Source of the DNA: Paracoccaceae bacterium
GTDB lineage: Bacteria; Pseudomonadota; Alphaproteobacteria; Rhodobacterales; Rhodobacteraceae
DNA length: 64,000 bases
NCBI GenBank assembly: GCA_011389685.1
Contig: JAABTV010000001.1
Location: forward strand, 62,001 to 126,000
Direction of reading: 5' to 3'
Part shown: one piece after another, positions 39,436-45,050 of the stretch
Layout of the letters: each line of letters starts with the position of its first letter
Position numbering within the stretch: position 1 is the first letter of the stretch
Made by a program: the position numbers and the translations under genes
The notes under the pieces: model-generated
What the model was told of the DNA's origin: nothing
Seen by the model: only the letters and a program-made list of their open reading frames with translations
The model's database searches: none

Positions 39436-40275
39436 CTACCAGCGTCCCGAGGCCCCGCCGCCACCGGATTTGCCGCCGCTGAACCCGGACTTGGAACGCG
39501 ATGAGCGCACCTTCGAGATCGAGTAATCCTCGTCACTGTGATAGCCGCAATCGCTGCACCTGATGGTGCGGCGGCCCAACCCGTTGATCGTCTGACTGGC
39601 CGGTCGGATCGTGCGCCGGGTGACCGACAGGCCGCGTTCGCCGCATTGCGGGCATTTGCCCATCGACGCGAACCTGTCCTTGATGCTGCGCCAGAACATC
39701 AGCAGGAGAACCGGCAGAACGATCAGCGCCCCCATCCATGCGCCGCCACCGCCCTTGCGTTCCGGCGCGGGTTGGCCCGCGTGAAACGATCGGGCGATGG
39801 TGGCGATCGTCTCACGCACACCGGCGCGGATGCCCGCCTCATGGCGATCCTTGCGAAACGCGGGCAGGATGGCGCGACCGATCACGGCTTCGGCCTCGCG
39901 GTTCCAGGCGTTGTCATAGCCCAGCCCCAGCTCCAGCCGCACCTCGCGGTCGTCGCGCAACACCAGCAACAGGATGCCGTCGTTGCGGTGCGCGTCCCCA
40001 ATACCCCATTGATCGAACAATCCGGCGGCGAAAGTCTCAAGATCCTGATCCGGGGCGAAAACCGCCTTGCGCGACAGGGTGACGACGGTGAATTCGATCC
40101 CCGTCTCCTCGCGCAGCGAGTCCAGTTCAGCGCCGATCTCGGCCTCGGCCTCGGGGGACAACAGCCCCGCGAAATCGTTCACTGTGATGGTTTCGGGGTC
40201 GGGATAGGTCTGCGCGCCCACAGGCGCGGCCAGACTCAGAGCCAGCAGCAGCCAGCCGATCAAAATGCGTTTCAT
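39436..40275 (-). CDS. TPM-domain membrane protein with C-terminal zinc ribbon
   Basis: A 279-residue protein with signal peptide MKRILIGWLLLALSLAAPVGA and a periplasmic TPM domain (about residues 30-160; VNDFAGLLSPEAEAEIGAEL and NDGILLLVLRDDREVRLELG). A membrane helix (MGALIVLPVLLLMFW) follows, then a cytoplasmic zinc-ribbon-like part (CPQCGERG and CSDCGYHSD) and a Gly/Ser-rich tail. TPM proteins are implicated in membrane quality control or photosystem repair. The zinc ribbon is an unusual addition. Confidence 0.88.
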   Translation of the reverse strand: MKRILIGWLLLALSLAAPVGAQTYPDPETITVNDFAGLLSPEAEAEIGAELDSLREETGIEFTVVTLSRKAVFAPDQDLETFAAGLFDQWGIGDAHRNDGILLLVLRDDREVRLELGLGYDNAWNREAEAVIGRAILPAFRKDRHEAGIRAGVRETIATIARSFHAGQPAPERKGGGGAWMGALIVLPVLLLMFWRSIKDRFASMGKCPQCGERGLSVTRRTIRPASQTINGLGRRTIRCSDCGYHSDEDYSISKVRSSRSKSGFSGGKSGGGGASGRW

Positions 40276-40338
40276 GGCAATCTCGCTTCAGTCAAATCAA
40301 CGGATACGAGACTACGGCAAGACCGGCCCGCGAATCAA

Positions 40339-41511
40339 TCAGATCTGCGCCTGCGCGAAATCGACCAGTTCTTTCAGGGCCTTGGCGAAGGCGGAATCCT
40401 CGATCGTCATCGCGACCCGGACATGCCCCGCCGCCGCCGCGCCAAAGCTTTCGCCCGGCATCACCGCGATTTGGCGCTCATCAAGCAGCCGATCGGCGAA
40501 AGCCGACCCGCTCATCCCCGTCGCGCGGATGTCGAGCATCAGATACATCGCCCCCTGCGGCGGCACCAGCCGCAGCGCGTTCTGCCCGGCCAGCACGTCA
40601 AGCGCGATCTCGCGCCGCCGCCTGAACGGCGCGGCCACCTCTTCCTCGCGGACGGTTCCGCGGCGCAGCGCGAACAGCGCGGCGTCCTGGATATAGCCCG
40701 CAACGCCATAGGTCGTGTGGGTCGAGAGGTTGATCATATGCGCCACCGCCTCTTGTGGCCCCACGACCCAGCCGATGCGGCTGCCGGTCATGGCATGGCT
40801 TTTCGACATCGACCCCACGACCAGCGTGCGTTCGGCCATGCCCTCTATCGCGCGGATCGACAGATGCGTCCCGTCCCAGACCTGGGTGTCATAGACCTCG
40901 TCCGAGATGACCCAGATGTCGCGTTTGCGGGCCACATCGGCGATCCCGTCCAGCGTCTCGCGGGAATAGACGATCCCGGTGGGATTGTTGGGCGTGTTGA
41001 TCATCAGCGTCGCCGCCCCCCCGGCGGCGGCGGCGTCGATATCGGCCGGGTCGGGCTGAAACCCGTTCTCCGGGCGCGCGGCGACGGGGCGGGGAATCGC
41101 ACCCGCCCCCCGGATCGTTCCGGGATAGGTCGCGTAATAGGGGTCGATGAACAGCGCCGTCTGCCCCGGATCGCACAGCGCCATATGCGAAGCGAACAGC
41201 CCCGATTGCCCGCCCGGCGTCACCAGCACGTTGTCGCGGGTGGTCGTGACGCCGCTCGCCGCCTCGATCCGCGCCGCCACCTCGTCGCGGAGCGCGGGAA
41301 TGCCCGGAATATCGGCATAGCCGGTGTGCCCGGCCAGCGCCGCGCGGTGCATCTCGTCCAGGATCGCCGGATCGGTGCGGATGTCATGCTCGCCGATGGT
41401 CAGTTCGGTCACATCGACGCCCGCCGCCTTCATCGCGCGCGCCCTGAAGAACAAATCCCACCCGCCCGATGCGTCGGGCGTCAACGTCGTGATCCGCTGT
41501 GAAAGCGCCAT
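40339..41511 (-). CDS. Class I/II pyridoxal-phosphate aminotransferase
   Basis: A 390-residue fold-type-I aminotransferase. The PLP Lys is K237 in VVGSMSKSHAMTGSRIGW; SDEVYD at 203-208 carries the pyridine-N Asp, and NTPNNPTG at 172-179 is the usual loop. A substrate cannot be assigned. It is divergent from the cysS leader region, with about 100 bases between its start and the leader ATG. Confidence 0.9.
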   Translation of the reverse strand: MALSQRITTLTPDASGGWDLFFRARAMKAAGVDVTELTIGEHDIRTDPAILDEMHRAALAGHTGYADIPGIPALRDEVAARIEAASGVTTTRDNVLVTPGGQSGLFASHMALCDPGQTALFIDPYYATYPGTIRGAGAIPRPVAARPENGFQPDPADIDAAAAGGAATLMINTPNNPTGIVYSRETLDGIADVARKRDIWVISDEVYDTQVWDGTHLSIRAIEGMAERTLVVGSMSKSHAMTGSRIGWVVGPQEAVAHMINLSTHTTYGVAGYIQDAALFALRRGTVREEEVAAPFRRRREIALDVLAGQNALRLVPPQGAMYLMLDIRATGMSGSAFADRLLDERQIAVMPGESFGAAAAGHVRVAMTIEDSAFAKALKELVDFAQAQI

Positions 41512-41575
41512 GCCGGAATCTCCTGTCGTGAAGTCGGCTCATGCAGCAGAGGCGCGGGGGGATTGTCAATCGCGC

Positions 41576-41604
41576 TTGGCAGAGGCCTGGAAATCTCCTA
41601 AGCT
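41576..41604 (+). promoter_or_regulatory. Predicted promoter of the cysS leader
   Basis: TTGGCA (41576-41581) and TAAGCT (41599-41604) are 17 bases apart. The leader ATG at 41612 is 7 bases past the -10, where transcription would begin, so the leader peptide mRNA would be leaderless. Confidence 0.6.
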
Positions 41605-41611
41605 CGCGCCC

Positions 41612-41653
41612 ATGAACGCAACCTGCATCACCATCTGCTGTATTATCGGCTGA
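41612..41653 (+). CDS. Cysteine-rich leader peptide upstream of cysS
   Basis: A 13-residue ORF, MNATCITICCIIG, with Cys codons at positions 5, 9 and 10 (TGC, TGC, TGT). It ends 105 bases before the cysS ATG. It has no ribosome site, but its ATG coincides with the predicted transcription start, as in leaderless trpL of rhizobia. Ribosome stalling at the tandem Cys codons would report low Cys-tRNA. Coding status is inferred from Cys density and position. Confidence 0.6.
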   Translation: MNATCITICCIIG

Positions 41654-41657
41654 CATC

Positions 41658-41728
41658 GGTCGGGGCTCCCGACCACCGGGCGGGTTGTTCTTCTGTTTCC
41701 TCTTCGAAATGAAATTGCTAAGCCCGCC
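41658..41728 (+). promoter_or_regulatory. Candidate cysS attenuator hairpins
   Basis: GGTCGGG (41658-41664) pairs with CCCGACC (41668-41674) around a GCT loop. CCCG (41668-41671) can instead pair with CGGG (41677-41680), just before a T-rich run (41685-41703), and GGCGGG (41679-41684) can pair with CCCGCC (41723-41728). The first two are mutually exclusive. This is compatible with attenuation; the fold is unmeasured. Confidence 0.45.
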
Positions 41729-41758
41729 GCGCAGCCGCACGCGAGGGCAAAAGGCATC

Positions 41759-43249
41759 ATGACCGAGATCAAGCTTTACAACACCCGCACCCGCAAGAAA
41801 GAGCGGTTCGATCCGATCGACCCCGACAATGTGCGGATGTATGTCTGTGGCCCCACGGTCTATGACCGCGCCCATCTGGGCAATGCGCGCCCCGTGGTGG
41901 TGTTCGACGTGCTGTTTCGGCTCCTGCGTCACGTTTATGGGCCGGACCATGTGACCTATGTGCGCAACTTCACCGACGTCGATGACAAGATCAACGCCCG
42001 CGCGACCGAGTCGGGGCGCCCGATTTCCGAAATCACCGCCGAGACGACGCAATGGTTTCTCGATGACATGGGCGAGCTGGGCGCGCTCGAGCCCACCCAC
42101 ATGCCGCGCGCGACGCAATACATCCCGCAGATGGTGGCGATGATCGAGGATCTGATCGCGAAGGGCCACGCCTATGAGGCCGAGGGCCACGTGCTTTTCG
42201 CCGTGGATTCATGGCGCGAGCATTACGGTCGGCTCTCGGGGCGCTCGGTCGATGACATGATCGCCGGCGCCCGGGTCGAGGTTGCGCCCTACAAGCGCAA
42301 CCCGATGGATTTCGTCCTGTGGAAACCGTCCACGCCTGACCTGCCGGGCTGGGACTCGCCCTGGGGCCGCGGCCGCCCCGGCTGGCATATCGAATGCTCG
42401 GCGATGGCGTTCGAACTCCTGGGCAAAAGCTTCGACATCCACGGCGGCGGCAACGACCTGATGTTCCCCCACCACGAGAACGAAATCGCCCAAAGCTGCT
42501 GCGCACACCCCGAGGGCGACTTCGCACGCTACTGGATGCATAACGAGATGCTGCAGGTCGAGGGCAAGAAGATGTCCAAGAGTTTGGGCAATTTCTTCAC
42601 GGTGCGGGATTTGTTGGAGGGTAACTGGGACGGCGGCTGGAAGGTGCCGGGCGAGGTGATCCGCTTCGTGTTTCTCAGCACGCATTATCGTAAGCCGATG
42701 GATTGGACTGAAAAGAAGGCCCGCGAGGCAAAAACGGCACTTAGAAAGCTGTCCGAACAAGCGGATGAGACCAGGTCCGGGGCGCCGGATCAGAGAATCG
42801 TCGATGCATTGGCAAGTGACTTGAATACGCCCATGGTTTTTGATCTTCTCAATAGGTTGTGGGCGCGTGGTGATAGCAAGACGCTGACGGCAAGCGCAAA
42901 GCTATTGGGCATTGACCTTGTCAAAATATCGAAGTCCATTTGGGGAAAGCCATTCTTTGTGGAATTCCCTGGTGGGGCAGGCGGTGAGGGTGAAGATTTC
43001 CAGCCCAATATTGGCTTTCTCTCTTGGGGAAGTATTTCGCAAGCCACTATGGATAAACTTCGCCCAATGATTCACCGATGGCTCAAGCTTCGTCGCGATA
43101 AGAATTGGAGCGAAGCTGACGAACTCAAGGAGAGAATTGGCACAACGGGCATTGAGCTGACTGTTACGAAAACGCCAGCAGGCGTGACGTCTGCAACTGC
43201 GAAAATCGGTGACAACTTCGACCCCGCCAAGCTGGAGGCTCTCGAATGA
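41759..43249 (+). CDS. cysS: Cysteinyl-tRNA synthetase with atypical, lower-GC 3' part
   Basis: A 496-residue class I synthetase charging tRNA-Cys. Cys30 begins the zinc site ([10 protein letters not shown]), the HIGH-type motif is HLGN at 39-42, [12 protein letters not shown] and [11 protein letters not shown] supply further zinc ligands, and KMSKS is in [12 protein letters not shown] near residue 271. Up to about base 42,680 the DNA is GC-rich like its neighbours. From there to the stop it is much less so, with codon use to match, and the C-terminal segment ([16 protein letters not shown] ... [16 protein letters not shown]) differs from the usual alphaproteobacterial form. The open frame looks intact and it is the only cysS in view. 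Confidence 0.93.
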
Positions 43250-43267
43250 CACGCAGCACAACAGAGG

Positions 43268-43351
43268 TTCGCCCCCGGCCCGAGGGTGGGGGCGTATTCG
43301 CCCCCGCCCTGGGGGGCGGGTCGGGGGCGAAGCGGGATGCAAGCATCCCGC
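43268..43351 (+). repeat. Large nested hairpin plus second hairpin after cysS
   Basis: The outer arms TTCGCCCCCGGCCCG (43268-43282) and CGGGTCGGGGGCGAA (43317-43331) pair with one mismatch or G-T pair. Inside, GGGTGGGGGCG (43284-43294) pairs with CGCCCCCGCCC (43299-43309), loop TATT. A second perfect hairpin, GCGGGATGC / GCATCCCGC, is at 43332-43351. There is no T-run. They separate cysS from cimA. Confidence 0.7.
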
Positions 43352-43433
43352 AAGTGGGTCTGTCCAATTGCCTTGGGGCGTCGCGGTCGGGCACTGCCCG
43401 TGACGCTACGCGCCCCGGCTGGGAGTGTGCATA

Positions 43434-45050
43434 ATGACCGAACGCCTCTACATCTACGACACCACCCTGCGCGACGGGCAACAAACCCAGGGCGTGCAAT
43501 TCTCCACCCCCGAGAAACAGGCCATCGCCAAGACCCTCGATGCGCTTGGCGTCGATTACATCGAGGGCGGCTGGCCCGGCGCCAACCCCACCGACAGCGA
43601 GTTTTTCCACAAAGCCCCGCAAACCCGCGCCACCTTCACCGCCTTCGGCATGACCAAGCGCGCGGGCCGCTCTGCCCAGAACGACGACGTTCTGGCCGAG
43701 GTGATGAACGCGGGCACGCCTGCCGTCTGCCTCGTCGGCAAGACCCATGATTTTCACGTCGAAACCGCGCTTGGCATCACCCAGGAGGAAAACCTCGAAA
43801 ACATCCGCGCCAGCATCGCGCATATGGTCGCGCAGGGCCGCGAAGCCCTCTTCGATGCCGAGCATTTCTTTGACGGTTACAAGGCCAACGCGCCTTACGC
43901 GCTCGAATGCGTTCTGGCCGCCCATGAGGCGGGCGCGCGCTGGGTCGTGCTGTGCGACACCAATGGCGGCACGCTGCCATCCGAGATCCACGACATCACC
44001 CGCGCGGTGATCGAGGCGGGCGTGCCGGGCGACCGGCTCGGTATCCACACCCATAACGACACCGAATCCGCCGTCGCGGGCACCCTTGCCGCCATCGACG
44101 CCGGCGCGCGGCAGGTGCAGGGCACGTTGAACGGACTGGGCGAGCGGTGCGGCAACGCGAACCTCACCACGCTCATCCCCACGCTGCTCCTGAAGGAACC
44201 CTATGCCAGCAGCTTCGAAACCGGCATCACCCGCGACGCGCTGAAGACCCTCACCCAAGCCAGCCGCCAGCTTGACGATATTCTCAACCGCGTGCCCACG
44301 CGACAGGCGCCCTACGTGGGCGCCAGCGCCTTTGCCCACAAGGCCGGGCTGCATGCCTCCGCCATCCTCAAGGATCCCACCACCTACGAACATATCGACC
44401 CCGAGGCGGTGGGCAATACCCGCATCATCCCGATGTCGAACCAGGCCGGGCAGTCGAACCTGCGCCGCCGCCTGGCCGAAGCGGGCATCGAGGTGCCGCC
44501 CGGCGATCCGGCACTGCCCCGCATCCTCGAAGCGATCAAGGCGCGCGAGGCGATCGGCTATACCTATGACAGCGCACAGGCCAGTTTCGAACTGCTCGCG
44601 CGGCGCGAACTGGGCCGGATGCCCGAGTTTTTCGAGGTCAAGCGCTACAAGGTCACGGTCGAGCGGCGCAAGAACAAGTATGATCGCATGGTCTCGCTCT
44701 CCGAGGCAGTGGTGGTGGTCAAGGTCGATGGCGACAAGAAACTCTCGGTCTCCGAAAGCCTTGACGAAAGCGGCTCGGATCGAGGCCCGGTCAACGCTCT
44801 GTCGAAGGCGCTGGCCAAGGATCTGGGCCGTTACCAGTCGCTCATCGACGATGTGAAGCTGGTGGATTTCAAGGTCCGCATCACCCAGGGCGGCACCGAG
44901 GCCGTGACCCGCGTCATCATCGACAGCCAGGACGGGCAGGGGCGGCGCTGGTCCACCGTCGGGGTCAGCGCCAACATCGTCGATGCCAGCTTCGAGGCCC
45001 TGCTGGATGCGGTGAACTGGAAACTCCTGCGCGACGGCGCGGCGGCTTGA
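43434..45050 (+). CDS. cimA: (R)-citramalate synthase
   Basis: A 538-residue enzyme of the isopropylmalate/citramalate synthase group, condensing pyruvate and acetyl-CoA toward isoleucine. The N-terminus MTERLYIYDTTLRDGQQTQG holds the catalytic DTTLRDG motif; GIHTHNDTESAVA supplies the metal His pair, and GTLNGLGERCGNANL follows. The C-terminal LeuA-type regulatory domain (about residues 400-530) is present. The start at 43434 is preferred to an in-frame ATG at 43425. It follows cysS by 184 bases. Confidence 0.92.
   Translation: MTERLYIYDTTLRDGQQTQGVQFSTPEKQAIAKTLDALGVDYIEGGWPGANPTDSEFFHKAPQTRATFTAFGMTKRAGRSAQNDDVLAEVMNAGTPAVCLVGKTHDFHVETALGITQEENLENIRASIAHMVAQGREALFDAEHFFDGYKANAPYALECVLAAHEAGARWVVLCDTNGGTLPSEIHDITRAVIEAGVPGDRLGIHTHNDTESAVAGTLAAIDAGARQVQGTLNGLGERCGNANLTTLIPTLLLKEPYASSFETGITRDALKTLTQASRQLDDILNRVPTRQAPYVGASAFAHKAGLHASAILKDPTTYEHIDPEAVGNTRIIPMSNQAGQSNLRRRLAEAGIEVPPGDPALPRILEAIKAREAIGYTYDSAQASFELLARRELGRMPEFFEVKRYKVTVERRKNKYDRMVSLSEAVVVVKVDGDKKLSVSESLDESGSDRGPVNALSKALAKDLGRYQSLIDDVKLVDFKVRITQGGTEAVTRVIIDSQDGQGRRWSTVGVSANIVDASFEALLDAVNWKLLRDGAAA

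Follow-up and report, generated by a model that had tools for sequence, protein, structure and literature searches.

The cysS-cimA locus

The window, a stretch of 64,000 nucleotides from a Paracoccaceae bacterium, carries a gene for cysteine--tRNA ligase, cysS, followed on the same strand by cimA, which codes for citramalate synthase of the pyruvate route to isoleucine. The encoded proteins were identified with TIGR00435 (433 bits, cut-off 340) and TIGR00977 (589 bits, cut-off 450), respectively. The nearest relatives of the window cysS are labelled as Rhodobacteraceae and kin. An in-frame ATG was chosen as start of cimA; the ORF listing has a GTG at 43425. The gap between both genes (43250-43424) contains GC-rich inverted repeats with arms of 15 nt and 13 nt, which might stop or slow transcription between the genes. 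On the minus strand a divergent PLP-dependent aminotransferase gene (40339-41511) adjoins the putative attenuator described below; none of the best 25 of 70 NCBIfam families scored over the cut-off for this protein. The following features were recognized (P1 denotes an RNA stem and is distinct from the first promoter):

41576-41604, plus strand: first promoter, TTGGCA, 17 nt, TAAGCT (sequence; -10 spacing in relatives)
41612-41653, plus strand: leader ORF of 13 codons, predicted to be leaderless, peptide MNATCITICCIIG (sequence, PWM, codon counts)
41614-41626, plus strand: stem P1, 5' arm (GAA and GCAACCTGC), within the leader ORF (folding; partner-swap in relatives)
41658-41674, plus strand: insert hairpin GGTCGGG-gct-CCCGACC (comparison of 168 regions)
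41679-41686, plus strand: stem H2, 5' arm GGCGGGTT (comparison, partner-swap)
41680-41693, plus strand: stem P1, 3' arm (GCGGGTTGT ... TTC) (comparison, folding)
41685-41700, plus strand: U-rich stretch TTGTTCTTCTGTTTCC, candidate termination site (sequence; U-rich columns in aligned relatives)
41696-41724, plus strand: P2, second promoter-like element, TTTCCT, 17 nt, TAAGCC (pattern in relatives)
41721-41728, plus strand: stem H2, 3' arm AGCCCGCC (comparison; a possible alternative partner is the cysS ribosome-binding region)
41740-41748, plus strand: CGCGAGGGC, ahead of cysS, which may pair with 41722-41731 (3:4) (weak on the diverse set)
41759-43249, plus strand: cysS, cysteine--tRNA ligase
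43434-45050, plus strand: cimA, citramalate synthase

Conservation of the leader ORF

The ATG of the leader ORF lies at 41612 and its TGA ends at 41653, 105 nt ahead of the cysS ATG. In the peptide MNATCITICCIIG Cys occupies residues 5, 9 and 10, and Ile residues 6, 8, 11 and 12. A sequence-only reading of the window had pointed out this 13-codon ORF, with three Cys codons of which two are adjacent and 105 bases to cysS, and the letters confirm it. For comparison, cysS upstream regions were taken from 80 public-genome loci, 149 further genomes of the order and the window. Removal of 10 duplicates from these 230 regions left 220, about 10 of which are from outside the Rhodobacterales. Matches to cysS were found in 204 of 205 genomes and, among the matches listed, 149 of the 203 others and the window's own were examined; as best matches were selected, the sample leans towards cysS genes resembling that of the window.

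The leader ORF was scored with a PWM of its last 7 residues at a threshold of 10, which was reached by 172 of the 220 distinct regions, including 50 on which the PWM had been trained and which score high by construction. The best score among 1150 shuffled sequences was 4.6, indicating that the leader ORF is present beyond chance. The commonest peptide end is I-I-C-C-I-(T/I)-(C/R)-stop; the peptide of the congener L083 is MNATCIIICCIIG. All 172 leader ORFs have at least one Cys codon and 148 have a tandem pair; 126 of the 172 leaders have the first Cys of the pair at residue 9 or 10 (residues 9-10 form the pair in the window). An alignment across Rhodobacterales, the check proposed with the sequence-only reading, thus finds the short Cys-containing ORF conserved. 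Cys codons number 519 in frame, compared to 13 and 21 in the two remaining frames and a mean of 173 in shuffles, in a frame-count test that was anchored, like one of the codon tables, on Cys-then-Ile, so that these two residues are fixed by construction. The 48 sub-threshold regions include some non-Rhodobacterales, one region cut by a contig end and about a dozen weaker look-alike ORFs. Divergent forms were also encountered: L223 has an ORF of 10 codons followed by a long spacer, and in L195 the entire leader is shortened. A leader ORF with the in-frame end MKTAFAIIGCCIIR was found in a record labelled Neomegalonemataceae, a different family.

Rfam yielded zero matches at E <=1 in 40000-45000 of the window. 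A model of our own, R1, built on an alignment that contains the window, recovers the window element at 3.3e-19, and in the window's own genome its search gave, beside other genes, just one more weak match (E 0.16). With stricter filters 4 of 240 Alphaproteobacteria genomes matched, 3 of them in the window's family, including the window's own genome. The fourth match (G297, E 7e-4) was counted as chance, because the locus layout puts it inside an ORF that by eye codes for a peptidyl-prolyl isomerase.

Candidate promoters and a probable leaderless transcript

The first promoter consists of TTGGCA (41576-41581) and TAAGCT (41599-41604), followed by 7 nt and the leader ATG. The letters of this element, likewise noted in the sequence-only reading, were verified and its spacing is widely kept: the -10 box ends 5-8 nt ahead of the ATG in 169 of the 172 homologous regions, the start having been picked by promoter score in the 41 ORFs with several ATGs. 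Regions aligned on the ATG display T and G-rich columns near -35, T-A at -12/-11 and a C at -1 in 84%. A Shine-Dalgarno-like sequence occurs in 3 of the 172 ORF-bearing regions. A simple promoter scan of the locus returned none at its threshold. The comparison across relatives supports the proposal that the leader mRNA is leaderless, with a predicted transcription start at or beside the ATG.

The P2 pattern occurs in 117 of the 172 regions with the ORF (shuffled mean 2.2) and in 14 of 27 without (0.25); both latter counts include L041, which is clipped by a contig end and was excluded from the tree counts, and several of the 14 retain other leader remnants, so not all are leader-free. Of 120 ORF-bearing regions matching a slightly wider pattern, 119 have a TTYY-to-TA distance of exactly 19 nt. 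The U/T-rich run overlaps the -35 part of P2. P2 would yield cysS mRNA without the attenuator and basal cysS expression.

RNA stems of the leader

Three stems are conserved. In P1 the ORF's 5' end is paired with the bases ahead of the U-run; H1 joins the final codon plus stop to GCGGG, and in H2 GCGGG pairs with CCCGC about 40 nt further on. H1 and H2 are mutually exclusive; the GCGGG within the 3' arm of P1 is common to H2 and in most relatives also to H1. Structure tests were based on 166 regions with both arms, on 163 without a long insert, or on 58 diverse ones, and the alignment A1 comprises 63 of 93 picked rows. Partner-swap z values, 163 regions each, were -17.8 for P1, -16.4 for H1 and -11.1 for H2; on the 58 diverse rows these were -8.3, -10.0 and -6.2, with 0 of 200 swaps as low. 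Nine control pairings in the diverse-row test ranged from -3.7 to +2.3, which implies that relatedness and composition by themselves produce some signal. Evidence by column is below the swap tests in strength: it is clear for H2, whose outer pair is G-C in 53 and C-G in 52 regions (paired in 114 of 158 versus 63 expected) and in whose core A-U replaces G-C in L106, L127 and L139; modest for P1 (59.0% of cells paired versus 54.8% shuffled); and hardly present for H1 (85.1% versus 84.8%), where substitutions are mostly one-sided. RNAalifold predicted H2 alone. In the comparison of relatives the Cys-core region gave no pairing signal with GCGGG, CCCGC or the H1 arm.

The window and its congener carry an inserted hairpin past the stop codon, and their P1 is lengthened to nine pairs plus three. 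The window leader folds at -31.7 kcal/mol compared to -24.5 for shuffles, 2 of 200 of which were as low, and a simple terminator scan found one terminator-like site at the locus versus 0.4 expected in shuffles. In L063, a locus lacking cimA downstream, promoter-like CTGGCA stands shortly before GGCGTCAGGCGGGCCGTTCC, which looks like loss of the ORF with retention of the later part.

A probable ribosome-mediated attenuator

The effect of a ribosome on the leader fold was modelled by masking an assumed footprint that reaches from 17 nt upstream of the A-site codon's first base to 13 nt downstream of that base. In 157 regions the mean probability that the bases preceding the U-run are paired was 0.81 without ribosome. 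It fell to 0.43-0.51 with the ribosome on the mostly-Ile positions preceding the Cys pair, and was lowest, 0.37, with the A site on the codon that precedes the final core Cys, in most cases the first tandem Cys codon. For the window the picture was less clear-cut, with 0.84 free and 0.50 at Cys9, but 0.10-0.17 at codons 2-5. The model suggests that a stalled ribosome would mean no terminator and expression, and a released ribosome a terminator and shut-off.

From the conservation and the modelling together, the element is probably a uORFC-8-2-type, ribosome-mediated transcription attenuator (see below) ahead of the cysS-cimA pair. RNA polymerase would start at or beside the leader ATG, giving a leaderless mRNA. 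With ample Cys-tRNA the ribosome would complete the leader ORF and depart, after which the 5' end of the transcript would pair with the bases preceding the U-run (GCAACCUGC with GCGGGUUGU in the window) and transcription would end. A ribosome stalled on the tandem Cys codons would cover the 5' arm of P1 and the terminator would stay open, allowing transcription of cysS and cimA. The antiterminator would then be the ribosome itself, and H2 would capture the freed GCGGG. H2 as transcription antiterminator was considered and rejected: its 3' arm, about 40 nt past GCGGG, is transcribed after the U-run and therefore too late. Points against the proposed scheme include that a ribosome paused on the stop codon would cover H1 as well, and that the U-rich run is interrupted, unlike a textbook T-tract.

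The logic of amino-acid attenuation at Cys codons, as put forward in the sequence-only reading, is thus supported by the comparison across relatives, whereas its RNA switch fared differently. There, GGTCGGG/CCCGACC and an alternative CCCG/CGGG pairing before a T-rich run were taken to be mutually exclusive, a stalled ribosome leaving the first hairpin free to form. The letters are present (GGTCGGG at 41658-41664, CCCGACC at 41668-41674, CCCG/CGGG and the T-rich run), and both pairings can be written from them, which is what could be said for GGTCGGG/CCCGACC as an antiterminator competing with a CCCG/CGGG terminator. The exclusive switch is not conserved, however. Among 168 regions the insert is confined to the window and same-genus L083 (the long spacer of L223 differs), and the conserved partners of GCGGG are the ORF 5' end, the stop region or the downstream CCCGC. 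This competition is therefore considered very unlikely; a CCCG/CGGG terminator was rejected, its pairing not being conserved in relatives. Folding with a stalled ribosome, suggested as a check, did change the modelled fold, and the stem that opened was P1, the conserved terminator candidate.

Control might also act in two layers, with translation attenuated too on read-through mRNA: H1/P1 would free CCCGC to mask the cysS ribosome-binding region, and H2 would unmask it. In 165 regions CCCGC is predicted to pair at most 16 nt from the cysS start with a mean probability of 0.54, versus 0.18 when downstream sequence is shuffled. On the diverse set this pairing gave swap z values of -2.6 to -3.2, inside the control range, and the second layer is regarded as rather unlikely. 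That the leader ORF is non-regulatory and P2 alone drives cysS would agree with retention of the P2 pattern in about half of the ORF-less regions, but it leaves the conserved reading frame, the Cys codons and the paired stems unexplained and is judged extremely unlikely.

Isoleucine codons and cimA

The most likely reading, a leaderless attenuator of cysS-cimA responding to Cys, may extend to Cys and Ile. As cimA, for isoleucine synthesis, comes after cysS, it was proposed that the leader is multivalent and senses both Cys-tRNA and Ile-tRNA, an extension compatible with the attenuator as described. The 172 leader ORFs contain more Ile than Cys codons (675 versus 519), and Ile codons out of frame number 12 and 6 (shuffled mean 206), the Ile following Cys being fixed by the anchor of this test. 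Third positions of Ile codons vary, for example ATC 58 and ATT 53 two codons ahead of the core Cys, and in the masking model a ribosome on the mostly-Ile positions likewise opens the terminator candidate. The third codon ahead of the stop, on the other hand, is ATT in 166 of 172 leaders, indicating that a nucleotide constraint also acts.

The association with cimA was studied in 79 hand-chosen genomes, 61 with a clear ORF and 18 ORF-negative or weak, a match at E <=1e-80 being scored as cimA. In 72 of 72 genomes with a match, cimA lies on the same strand within 2 kb of cysS. All 61 genomes with a clear ORF have cimA after cysS, as do 6 of 8 in which the ORF is weak (G177 and G161, which have a Cys-rich ORF and no cimA match, were scored as weak) and 5 of 10 that lack the ORF; the difference between clear and no ORF has a Fisher p of 2e-5 with genomes treated as unrelated. 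In the overlapping 76-locus set the ORF was found in 49 of 61 loci with cimA and in 0 of the 15 that lack cimA, of which 8 are non-Rhodobacterales. On the cysS tree 1-2 supported independent pairs agree and none are opposed, too few for a significant test of joint loss, and five sampled genomes have kept cysS-cimA without the leader ORF. One genome without leader ORF, G085, has a cimA match with one in-frame TAA.

Five of the 7 sampled genomes that lack a cimA match are without such an ORF; the other 2, belonging to one genus (L135 and L142), carry in the customary position the short ORF MDWICCLCRA, whose peptide has three Cys and a single Ile. It lies 123-90 nt ahead of cysS, and TATA-like letters precede its ATG by about 6 nt. 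It is perhaps the same leader having lost its Ile codons. Dual sensing would predict such a Cys-rich, Ile-poor ORF where cimA is absent; it is known from a single genus, and kinship weakens the comparison. On balance, sensing of both amino acids has, in our view, somewhat less than an even chance of being correct. The complete model, in which a leaderless Cys plus Ile attenuator controls a cysS-cimA operon by means of a 5'-end terminator arm, P2 remains unattenuated, and absence of cimA entails loss of the leader or an Ile-poor one, is put forward tentatively and with more doubt than confidence.

Comparison with known systems

A motif of this kind was predicted in 2021 as uORFC-8-2, with 145 examples before cysS in Rhodobacterales and ribosome-mediated attenuation proposed (PMC8632094), so the central attenuator idea is not new. 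The sequence-only reading was aware of Cys leader peptides from Actinobacteria, though not of the present one. The section on uORFC-8-2, as far as consulted, reports a prediction from sequence without functional test (PMC8632094). As described there, the motif occurs solely upstream of cysS in Rhodobacterales and has an AUG, tandem Cys codons, a U-run and two stems, the first containing the Cys codons. The window element agrees with the motif in location, codons and U-run, as it lies directly before cysS and has a short AUG ORF with tandem Cys and a 3' U-run. Its first stem is present and extended, and the place of the second stem is taken by the insert hairpin; the Cys pair is at 9-10 and not, as usual for uORFC-8-2, at positions 14 and 15 (PMC8632094), and the insert hairpin past the stop is a further difference. 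Neither 'leaderless' nor 'isoleucine' appears in the main text of PMC8632094, and its motif section mentions neither cimA nor H2 nor a second promoter. In the searched literature the name uORFC-8-2 was found in PMC8632094 only, and to judge from titles and abstract openings the papers found do not deal with the cysS-cimA operon.

Likenesses to other leaders are partial. Leaderless polycysteine short ORFs of mycobacteria were reportedly described by Canestrari in 2020. According to the parts of the sources consulted, these share with the proposed window attenuator a leaderless start, Cys codons and Cys-responsive attenuation (PMC9094748, PMC13236596), but belong to Actinobacteria and attenuate translation of cysteine biosynthetic genes (PMC13236596). 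The attenuator RNA of Sinorhizobium meliloti trpL, as reported in the part consulted, starts, as predicted for the window, with the ATG of a leader peptide, of 14 aa, but with Trp codons, trpE(G) and formation of an antiterminator structure (PMC7298713). A separate antiterminator helix before the terminator, characteristic of trp-type attenuators, was not found in our comparison, where H2 is the sole conserved alternative helix.

The thr and ilv leader peptides of E. coli contain codons for more than one amino acid. Unlike what is predicted for the window leader they are not leaderless, and their genes and structures differ. New relative to the systems above, though unproven, are the Ile-rich leaders, the association with cimA, the Cys-rich, Ile-poor ORF in two cimA-less congeners and the second promoter-like element. 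If both amino acids are sensed, charging of tRNA-Cys would be tied to isoleucine synthesis, a coupling of which we know no other instance. The comparative anatomy (leaderless start, 5'-end terminator arm, codons for two amino acids and second promoter) makes the proposed attenuator directly testable.
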